Positions 66 through 59,843 of a stretch of DNA of 64,000 nt are shown here, one piece after another (position 1 is the stretch's first letter; every line of letters begins with the position of its first letter). Where the stretch lies: contig NC_014166.1 of assembly GCF_000092245.1 (NCBI RefSeq), positions 1,116,001 through 1,180,000 on the forward strand, in the 5' to 3' direction. The position numbers and the translations under genes are program-made. Source of the DNA: Arcobacter nitrofigilis DSM 7299 (GTDB taxonomy: Bacteria; Campylobacterota; Campylobacteria; Campylobacterales; Arcobacteraceae). The notes beneath the pieces were generated by a model that was not told where the DNA came from, made no database searches, and was given only the letters and a program-made list of their open reading frames with translations.

Positions 66-594
66 ATATTCTCTCTTGAAGAGGTAAACCTCTTCGCTTT
101 TCTTACTTTTTGATCTCGAAAAAGTAAGCAAAAAAAGACTGCCGAATTGATGAAGGCAAGCTCCCTTTCAGTTATATGTTTATTTTCTGCCCTGCAAAAC
201 TCACTAAAATGACCGTTTAGGTCATTTCTTAACGCTCAAACAGTTTCGGGCTTTACCGAAAATAAACATCTAACTTCCAGCTTCATCAAAGGCAGAAAGA
301 AATACCTATAGTTCAAATTCTTATTTATAAAGTAATATATAAACACCAAATAATATTGCTACATCTACAGGAGCCGAGCGTTTATTTTTCTCTTTTTGAA
401 ATAAGATTGGTAACTGTCTGAGTGTTTAAAAGTTGCTAAACGCAAGTTTTAATAAACGAGTTTTACCAATCAGAAAAGATAAAAATAAAAAGTGAGGGAA
501 CCTTTGGCTTCGCAGCCGTAGTTGTTTTTGCTTACTTTTCGTCAATACAAAAGTAAGAAAGCGGAGAGGTTTACCTCTTCAAGAGAATAAATAT
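66..594. repeat. Structured interspersed repeat, copy 1 (inverted-repeat ends, no ORF)
   Basis: About 529 bp, visibly richer in G+C than its surroundings, without a convincing ORF. The ends are inverted repeats: the run at 71-110 is matched in reverse complement at 549-588. Each end also carries two local hairpins: gaagagg-TAAA-cctcttc (78-95) and a cttacttttt/aaaaagtaag hairpin (102-128) on the left, with equivalents at 565-578 and 530-559 on the right. Inside are a long helix 170-187/258-275 (one mismatch) enclosed by 139-155/281-295, hairpin aaatgacc-GTTTA-ggtcattt (207-227), helix 381-397/473-489, helix attggtaa/ttaccaat (406-413/463-470) and hairpin 428-450 with loop TAAAC. Related copies lie at 56829 and 59282. 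It may be a non-autonomous mobile repeat or a structured RNA; the sequence does not decide. Confidence 0.85.
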
Positions 595-56733: not shown

Positions 56734-56740
56734 TCGATTA

Positions 56741-56828
56741 AAAATCTGGGATATGATACCAATTAATTGTAAATTGAATTATATCACAGAGGTTGAAATT
56801 TCATTTTTTTCTAATATATATTTTTATG
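56741..56828. repeat. Left flank shared by repeat copies 2 and 3
   Basis: From 56741 (aaaatctggg...) to about 56795 the sequence matches 59193-59250 with few changes, then some 30 bp differ before the structured repeat proper begins. Copy 1 lacks this flank. The segment starts 8 bp after the nuclease-like gene stop, whereas its counterpart supplies the last codons of the gene ending at 59218. Confidence 0.7.
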
Positions 56829-57353
56829 CTCATGAAGACTTAGCAGTCTTCGCTTTTCTTACTTTTTGATCTCGAAAAAGTAAGCAAAAAAGACTGCCGA
56901 ATTGATGAAGGCAAAGCTATCTTCCAGTTATATATTTATTTCCTGCCCTGCAAAACTCACTAAAATGACCATTTAGGTCATTTTTTAACGTTCAAACAGT
57001 TTCGGGCTTTACCGAAAATAAACATTTAACTTCCAGCTTCATCAAAGGCAGAAAGAAAAGACGATAGTTTTAACTGCTAGTTTATAAAGTAATATATAGA
57101 CACCAAATAATATTGCTACATCTACAGAAGCCGAACGTTTATTTTTCTCTTTTCTAAATAAGATTGGTAACTGTCTGAGTGTTTAAAAGTTCCTAAATGG
57201 AAGTTTTAATAAACGAGTTTTACCAATGAGAAAAGATAAAAATAGTAAGTGAGGGAACCCGAAGGGCTTCGCAGCTGTAGTTGTTTTTGCTTACTTTTCG
57301 TCAATACAAAAGTAAGAAAGCGGAGAGGTTTACCTCTTCAAGAGAATAAATAT
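56829..57353. repeat. Structured interspersed repeat, copy 2
   Basis: About 525 bp, collinear with copy 1 with scattered changes. The left terminal hairpin is gaagact-TAGC-agtcttc (56834-56851), different in sequence from copy 1 but still paired, while the right end keeps the copy-1 gaggtttacctc form. The inner hairpin is aaaagttcc-TAAAT-ggaagtttt (57185-57207), where copy 1 has ttgc/gcaa in place of ttcc/ggaa. There is no ORF. It fills most of the gap 56734-57435 together with its left flank. Confidence 0.85.
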
Positions 57354-58364: not shown

Positions 58365-59218
58365 TGTTTAAGTTTATAAAAAAACTGTTGGTTTTAGTCT
58401 TTATATTAGTTTTACAGGTATTAATATATTTTATTTTTATAGAACCTATAATTACACAATGGGGAGCTTCAAAAGAAGAAGTATCCATGTCAATGGTGGG
58501 TGATAATGATAATTTAAACATCACATCAACTAGAGCAATACAAATTGATGCAAATAAACATATTATTTGGCAATTACTTATGCAATTAGGTGCTAATAGG
58601 CAAGGTTTTTATAGCTATGATTTTATTGAGCATGAATTAGGAAATGAAGCTCAATATCAAAGTTTAAATACATCTAAAAACACAAATTTAAAAGTAGGAG
58701 ATATTGTTCATGGTTCAAGAAATAAAGGAAGTGCTTTAAGTGTTTACAATTTTCCAGTACTTTATGTAAAACCAGAAGAAAGCCTTGTTTTAGAAAATTG
58801 GGGTACATTTTTAGTAAAAAGTATAAATGAAAAACAATCTCGATTGATTGTTAGAACACAAGAAAAGAAAAGTGTTAATTTATGGACAAGTTTTAAAAAT
58901 CATTTGATTATTCCATTTCATTATATAATGGAACGACGAATGTTATTAGGTCTTAAAATGCACTCAGAACAAAGTAATAAATTTTCACCTAAGAATGACT
59001 TATTATGGTTTGGCGGAGTTGTTTCTTTATTTTGTTTGATTCTGTTGCTTTTTTTCAGACTAAAGGGAATTCTCCTTAAGATTATTATTACATCTTTTTT
59101 TGCTATTTTATGGCAAGTAATAGTATTTTTATTTGAACCTATATTTTTATATAGTGCAGTTTTATTAGTCGTTATATGTTTTATACTTTTTAAAATCTGG
59201 GGGCAGGATACCAATTAA
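58364..59218 (+). CDS. Membrane-anchored SRPBCC-like protein with repeat-derived C-terminus
   Basis: 284 residues from GTG 58364. An N-terminal span (about 6-28), then a SRPBCC/START-like domain (50-190: TRAIQIDANKHIIWQLLMQL, RQGFYSYDFIEHELGNE, VYNFPVLYVKPEESLVLENW given in part), then spans at about 222-240, 244-262 and 264-280. The last eight codons, KIWGQDTN, are encoded by a flank shared with repeat copy 2 (aaaatctggg...), so the original C-terminus was probably changed by repeat insertion or recombination. Coupled to the four-span protein gene; same TetR cassette. Confidence 0.78.
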   Translation: MFKFIKKLLVLVFILVLQVLIYFIFIEPIITQWGASKEEVSMSMVGDNDNLNITSTRAIQIDANKHIIWQLLMQLGANRQGFYSYDFIEHELGNEAQYQSLNTSKNTNLKVGDIVHGSRNKGSALSVYNFPVLYVKPEESLVLENWGTFLVKSINEKQSRLIVRTQEKKSVNLWTSFKNHLIIPFHYIMERRMLLGLKMHSEQSNKFSPKNDLLWFGGVVSLFCLILLLFFRLKGILLKIIITSFFAILWQVIVFLFEPIFLYSAVLLVVICFILFKIWGQDTN

Positions 59219-59281
59219 TTGTGAATTGAATTATGTCACAGAGGTTGAACCTTCACCTTTTTTTTAATGTTAGTTTTAAAT
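59193..59281. repeat. Left flank of repeat copy 3, overlapping a gene end
   Basis: 59193-59250 matches 56741-56795. The gene ending at 59218 uses the first 26 bp as coding sequence. As in copy 2, about 30 diverged bases separate it from the structured repeat. Confidence 0.7.
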
Positions 59282-59843
59282 TCTCATGAAGACTTAGTAG
59301 TCTTCGCTTTTCTTACTTTTTGATCTCGAAAAAGTAAGCAAAAAAGACTGCCAAATTGATGAAGGCAAGCTACCTTCCAGTTATATATTTATTTTCTGCC
59401 CTGCAAAACTCACTAAAATGACCGTTTAGGTCATTTCTTAACGCTCAAACAGTTTCGGGCTTTACCGAAAATAAACATCTAACTTCCAGCTTCATCAAAG
59501 GCAGAAAGAAATCCCTACAGTTCAAACTATCATTTGTAAATTTATTAAGTAAAAGTTTTAACATAAGACAATCAAAAATGCAAATGTCCTTATCCCACCT
59601 TTAGTTCCAACATCTACAGAAGCTGAGTGTTTGTTTTATCTTTTCGGAAAAGGCTTGCAACTGTTTGAGTAAATAAATATGCTAAATGCATATTTATTTA
59701 TGAGTTTTGCAAGACAGAAAAGATAAAACAATAAACGAAGGAACCCAAAGGGCTTCGAAGCCGTTGGTGGTTTTTTGTTTTACTTTTTGCCACCAAAAAG
59801 TGAAGAAGCGGAGAGGTTTACCTCTTCAAGAGAATAAGTATTT
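59282..59843. repeat. Structured interspersed repeat, copy 3 (diverged right half)
   Basis: About 562 bp. The left half (59311-59520) is nearly identical to copy 1; the left terminal hairpin (59288-59305) is of the copy-2 kind. The right half has quite different bases but equivalent helices: gttttatcttttc/gaaaagataaaac (59633-59645, 59717-59729), cttgcaa/ttgcaag (59654-59660, 59707-59713), and a perfect 13-bp hairpin with loop TAAAT (59670-59700). Near the right end actttttgccaccaaaaagt forms a hairpin where copies 1 and 2 have cttacttttc...aaaagtaag, then the shared gaggtttacctc end. No ORF. Confidence 0.85.

Follow-up and report, generated by a model that had tools for sequence, protein, structure and literature searches.

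Three copies of a non-coding repeat were identified on the window, the 64,000-nucleotide stretch of DNA analysed here, which corresponds to positions 1116001-1180000 of a 3.19-Mb single-contig genome (G000). The coordinates and letters given for them in the preliminary description are exact (Table 1). The feature that was originally noted is the left tip hairpin of copy 2. As the preliminary description had stated, the two innermost pairs of the left tip are G-C and G-C in copy 1, and C-G and T-A in copies 2 and 3, with the hairpin left intact. The left tips of copies 2 and 3 (GAAGACT..AGTCTTC) consequently mismatch their own right ends, where GGAGAGGTTTACCTCTTC is retained in all three copies.

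Two corrections apply. Copies 2 and 3 are not independent: the segments lying directly outside these elements (89 bp) are 78% alike, and this common outer flank indicates one duplicated junction rather than two events. Nor is the change one from an ancestral copy 1 to derived copies 2 and 3, since GAAGACT..AGTCTTC is one of several tip types and is present on many copies, at left as well as right ends. The right flank of copy 3 is orthologous to that of a copy in the same-genus genome G002, of which the left tip is GAACACC-TAAA-GGTCTTC.

Table 1. Positions of the repeat copies, their parts and the duplicated outer segments on the window.
Feature	Position	Strand	Basis
Element copy 1, tip to tip including outer YTCTCWT / AWGAGAR tags	71..587	+	Sequence; whole-genome match; orthologous sites (G001, G002)
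Copy 1 left tip hairpin, GAAGAGG-TAAA-CCTCTTC	78..95	+	Sequence; tip tables
Right tip hairpin of copy 1, GGAGAGGTTTACCTCTTC when read outward	563..580	-	Sequence
Outer segment of copy 2, with a homologous one beside copy 3	56738..56826	+	Window comparison
Element copy 2	56828..57346	+	Sequence; whole-genome match
Copy 2 left tip hairpin, GAAGACT-TAGC-AGTCTTC (noted feature), inward-facing, terminator-like	56834..56851	+	Sequence; terminator scan
Left half-unit of copy 2, folded in the outward (minus-strand) reading	56834..57056	-	Folding
Copy 2 left second hairpin, TTTCTTACTTTTT-gatctcg-AAAAAGTAAGCAAA	56855..56888	+	Sequence
Right half-unit of copy 2, folded in the outward (plus-strand) reading	57117..57339	+	Folding
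Copy 2 right tip hairpin, outward GGAGAGG-TTTA-CCTCTTC, G.U at pair 2	57322..57339	-	Sequence; terminator scan
Segment outside copy 3, homologous to 56738-56826	59190..59278	+	Window comparison
Element copy 3 (G002 ortholog is L145)	59281..59834	+	Sequence; whole-genome match; orthologous site
Copy 3 left tip hairpin, GAAGACT-TAGT-AGTCTTC	59288..59305	+	Sequence; terminator scan
Copy 3 right tip hairpin	59810..59827	-	Sequence

Distribution and architecture of the repeat family

The three copies of the window are members of a non-coding repeat family of Arcobacteraceae. A whole-genome search of G000 identified approximately 15 full copies along with pieces. Matches numbered in the dozens in G001 and G002, which belong to the same genus, and others were found in G010, G011, G016 and G020; relatives found by DNA search included Arcobacter and Aliarcobacter records. 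A pattern of tip plus hairpin was found in nine of 104 genomes of the family, spanning four genera, with zero control matches. A sequence-driven core model matched five of 249 Campylobacterota genomes, all of the same family bar one weak match; covariance model R1 retained only the P1 stem, its apical stems being misaligned, and its search is sequence-driven. No match to the element was obtained in plasmid and phage collections, the end pattern was not matched in viral contigs, and a literature search for such an Arcobacter repeat found none.

A full copy of approximately 0.5 kb consists of two inverted half-units of approximately 225 bp flanking a spacer of approximately 70-130 bp. Each end carries, from outside to inside, YTCTCWT, an 18-nt hairpin, GCTTT and a second hairpin. 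Read outward, the half-unit begins with a long stem, an internal loop (in which AACTGTTTGA and GAGTTTTGCA are nearly invariant) and an apical hairpin, followed by small hairpins, the second hairpin CTTACTTTT..AAAAGTAAG and lastly the tip. Among 119 half-units all helices tested were found to pair above shuffled expectation, with z values of 6 to 26 that are overstated as relatedness survives shuffling, and at least two Watson-Crick types occur at each of the five pairs of the apical stem. Reduced forms also exist, comprising either only the two tips with fused second hairpins (73-85 bp; L074, L039) or a single apical arm (275 bp; L153, L156).

Some second hairpins (L061, L064, L066, L073) have a loop that is enlarged by an insert of approximately 35 bp (ACCTTTCAGGATTTAGTCACTTCGTTCCCGCATG), which is one more module open to exchange. 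On another genome (L235, G264:C1:330500-335500), three core copies were found at a spacing of 559 bp, the copies of that genome being without the usual tip hairpin. With a looser search, a motif resembling the second hairpin (CTTACTTTTTG..CAAAAAGTAAGCAAAAA) was identified in SR1, Patescibacteria, Peregrinibacteria, Clostridiales and Saprospiraceae records (L121, L126, L127, L129, L130, L134, L137 and L138), and these matches outside Arcobacteraceae may possibly belong to a wider superfamily.

Pairing of the tip hairpin

Tips were compared across 94 ends, comprising approximately 40 distinct hairpin sequences. Conservation of the flank begins abruptly at position -7 (YTCTCWT) and is at background beyond -8. 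Within the stem, pairs 3 and 5 are invariant, while changes on both sides were found at pair 4 (G-C/A-U), pair 6 (C-G/G-C) and pair 7 (C-G/U-A/G-C). In the set of 23 distinct hairpins that have 4-nt loops, the outward strand is paired in 95.0% of cells, compared to 83.3±1.5% in 500 shuffles, none of which equalled it, and pairing falls to 59-65% when the partner is slid by one base. A count of compensatory changes had been proposed with the original observation; among these same hairpins 20 cells carry changes in both arms, where shuffles give 5.0±1.8. Pairing is thereby kept beyond chance across the family, which is stronger evidence for the observation than the window by itself provides. The claim that it is the local hairpin and not end-to-end identity that is conserved is supported by this covariation at pairs 4, 6 and 7, by the unlike hairpins often borne by the two ends of one copy, and by whole hairpins that are replaced at orthologous sites with pairing retained.

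The same 23 hairpins are paired in only 83.9% of cells when read inward, and this gap is entirely due to A·C mismatches, which are G·U pairs on the outward strand. Tips of the 119 half-units hold 75 G·U cells against seven A·C cells when read outward, and 30 of 41 tip types are more stable outward compared to four of 41 inward. Folding of the outward strand, rather than the inward one, is suggested by these figures. The wobble bias comes, however, from a small number of polymorphic positions that are independent (pairs 1, 2 and 4 of the tip and a single pair of the second hairpin), and the inner stems show little of it (59:43 and 39:34).

Most of the copies compared sit at the same place in G001 as in G000 and have been kept vertically. 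At such orthologous sites the left tip of L005 is GAAGACT/AGTCTCC in G000, GAAAACC/GGTTTCC in G001 and GAAAAGC/GCTTTCC in G002, all of them paired, and the half beside it varies in orientation or type among the three species. The right tip of L006 is GGAGAGG/CCTCTTC in G000 and GAAGAACTTGTTCTTC in G001 and G002, and the whole left hairpin of L002 has been replaced. Several further orthologous ends differ by a one-sided change between A-U and G·U as read outward, the left tips of L006 and L014 have not changed, and one damaged tip was identified (L009 left in G001, with a 2-nt deletion). Tip type and half type assort freely, a sign that copies have traded parts in addition to changing step by step. 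The element at the L005 site (G000:C1:2270890) was also found to lie in opposite orientation in G001 and G002 (L210, L211).

Interpretation of the hairpin ends

The reading that we favour, tentatively, is that the noted site is the terminus of a non-autonomous mobile repeat of approximately 0.5 kb with hairpin ends that are read in trans by their shape. In such an element, two inverted structured halves of approximately 225 bp would each be capped by YTCTCWT, the 18-nt hairpin, GCTTT and the second hairpin, and an enzyme or structure-specific process acting in trans would recognise each end as a folded hairpin of the outward strand, together with constant letters on either side of it (TCTCWT outside, GC inside). 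The bases of the stem, and any match of one end to the other, would then be free to drift or to be swapped. As a by-product, the inward hairpin with its T-rich tract would probably end transcription of the upstream gene, making insertion after stop codons harmless. Movement of the copies by transposition is suggested by their dispersal, and the covariation, the G·U bias, the sharp flank, the lack of direct repeats, the replacement of hairpins at orthologous sites and the short tip-only forms all argue for this reading, in which the hairpin would be the recognised feature. Against this stand a mobilising enzyme that was not found among the candidates considered below, the vertical inheritance of most copies compared between G000 and G001, and the few positions that carry the wobble bias. 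Moreover, neither of the two orthologous loci examined that are free of the element, valS in G001 (where this genome is approximately 94% identical to G000) and the L009 site in G002, is a clean empty site, as synteny breaks on the far side. A bolder form of this reading, that the family represents a kind of structured mobile repeat not described before, in which a non-Y1 enzyme or an RNA-based process reads the outward hairpin shape and tips and halves are traded like cassettes, is possible but doubtful.

Among known systems the element is best read as resembling an oversized REPIN that is hairpin-ended and non-autonomous. It shares with REP, REPIN and BIME repeats (GTAG and CGTC families; PMC3733652, PMC6006769) an intergenic location, the pairing of inverted hairpin units, a frequent position within 20 nt after stop codons, terminator-like character and the absence of direct repeats. 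It differs in its length (approximately 500 bp compared to 20-130 bp), in the large structured arm within each half, in its tag (TCTCWT in place of GTAG/CGTC) and in that no cognate RAYT was found. MITEs of DDE transposons are likewise multicopy and non-coding, with terminal inverted repeats and no enzyme of their own; the element also bears terminal inverted repeats (TCTCWTGAA... at both ends, although the tips often differ), but its terminal letters vary while pairing is kept, and direct repeats, which would indicate a target-site duplication, were no more frequent in the flanks of 29 elements than in shuffled pairs of flanks. To our knowledge, ends that are read by shape are well established only for Y1 systems (IS200/IS605, RAYT) and for integron attC sites. 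Shape-conserved ends without a Y1 partner or target duplication would, if true, open a search for another hairpin-reading enzyme. Should the element prove ordinary, it would still be a structured, terminator-like repeat in many copies, which marks the ends of genes and exchanges modules, and its family provides natural covariation data in which pairing can be told apart from sequence.

Another account, which we consider doubtful, is that the tips are kept as intrinsic terminators, with incoming transcripts stopping at the hairpin and CTTTTCTTACTTTTT and host selection keeping the pairing. Twenty-four of 85 ends lie 4-19 nt past the stop codon of a gene that is oriented towards the element (orthologous copies being counted separately), and in element-free relatives a native terminator occupies the same position, GAAGACC-TTTATT-GGTCTTC behind valS in G001 and AAGAGAG-AAAA-CTCTCTTTT at the L009 site in G002. 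A terminator scan of the region called nine sites compared to 1.5 expected, among them the left tips of copies 2 and 3 and the right tip of copy 2, all facing inward, and the stable hairpin followed by a T-rich tract that is typical of intrinsic terminators is present in the inward direction only. If termination were what maintains the tips, stop-adjacent tips would be expected to pair better. This was not seen, with perfect inward pairing in 10 of 29 stop-adjacent tips and 18 of 56 elsewhere, and outward pairing equally good (0.968 and 0.977, respectively), so a terminator role is insufficient as the sole explanation. It also leaves the outward-favouring mismatches unexplained, as the frequent A·C mismatches weaken precisely the RNA that is read inward, and the conserved outer TCTCWT would be superfluous. 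Intrinsic (rho-independent) terminators thus resemble the element in their hairpin, T-rich tract and location after stops, but the latter appears mobile, has a hairpin at both ends, keeps pairing independently of its neighbours and carries the extra TCTCWT. The ends probably do terminate transcription also, as a secondary trait. At a further site in G002 (L099, G002:C5:283296), only a tip is left, 6 nt downstream of a stop codon and with the rest of the element unrecognisable. It may be a plain terminator and fits this account.

The G·U bias of the outward strand is compatible with the RNA end structure named in the preliminary description, and is also what would be expected if each half were an outward-transcribed structured RNA of which the tip is the 3'-terminal hairpin, serving stability or processing, the copies being multicopy RNA genes or derived from RNA. 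The strong covariation of the apical (z 26, on the same overstated scale), P1 and P2 stems on the outward strand and the near invariance of the loops AACTGTTTGA / GAGTTTTGCA are consistent with this, but single-stranded DNA would yield an identical bias through G.T pairs, and RNAalifold energies are similar on the two strands (-35.8 and -32.7). An Rfam search, moreover, returned no family at the gathering threshold and only weak, chance-level matches by E-value. We regard this reading of the halves as RNAs as unlikely.

Transposases and neighbouring repeats

The preliminary description had pointed to a Y1-type (TnpA/RAYT) transposase and to a search for one in the same genome. This route is not supported. 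The single Y1 match in G000 is a short fragment with no element nearby, and no match was obtained in G001, G010 or G014, of which G001 and G010 are rich in the element. Y1 was therefore rejected as a partner, its presence not tracking with the element, as further illustrated by G023, which holds 17 Y1 copies and no element match. The GTAG/GTGG guide is absent from the tips, where the tag is YTCTCWT in 94 ends, and no cognate RAYT flanked by the element repeat was found; one RAYT of G016 lies near an element half, but with GTGGACAGTCACC repeats of its own. Short hairpin ends and the absence of target duplication are shared with IS200/IS605, whereas the ends of the element are inverted copies of each other.

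An IS200/IS605 TnpA or a RAYT/TIRYT that moves, or once moved, the element and has since been lost from present genomes is quite improbable on these grounds. Such an enzyme would account for hairpin-read ends, for the lack of target duplication and for REPIN-like paired inverted units after stop codons, and repeats of the GGGGACAG type, as flank Y1 genes, adjoin the ends of copies 2 and 3 and of L004, L219, L145 and L163. However, existing Y1 genes bear their own GGGGACAG, GTGGACAG or GGGGTCTGACCCC repeats and not the element tips. The outer segment of copy 3 contains GGGGGCAGGATACCAATTAATT (the GGGGGCAGGATACC motif), which resembles the tandem pair AAAATCTGGGGACAGAATACCAATTAATT beside a Y1 gene in G020. 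TIRtrons, the repeats associated with TIRYT, carry the motif GGGGWSAS (PMC3733652), which the G020 letters GGGGACAG match fully and the copy 3 letters GGGGGCAG fit loosely, as the motif wants A or T at the fifth place. This TIRtron-like repeat is separate from the element, as most copies are without it and it also occurs alone (L258, L264, L254).

Least probable is that no constraint acts on the hairpin and that copies 2 and 3 inherited another tip block by recombination, every circulating block being already a palindrome: tips and half types do assort freely, copies 2 and 3 do share a duplicated flank and the central 8 nt often differ as entire blocks, so that the part of this objection concerning capture holds, tips being passed between copies as blocks, but stepwise compensated variants within one loop type (for example ACC-TAAA-GGT and ACT-TAAA-AGT) and the rarity of broken stems (95% paired) indicate that the blocks themselves evolve under pairing.

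No autonomous long version, with a gene between the tips, was identified among the tip positions of G000 or in the family scan, bar one copy in G010 (L152, G010:C17:65800-68800), within which an IS110-family transposase gene (PF01548, PF02371) lies at 1179-2165. IS110 was rejected as a partner, as no such gene was found in G000 and G001, and the G010 gene looks like an insertion into the conserved internal loop, between GAGGACT and CTGTTTGAGG. Elsewhere in G000 (L244, G000:C1:2447600-2450000), a decayed RAYT-like Y1 gene was found amid GGGGTCTGACCCC and GGGGACAGTCGCC repeats.
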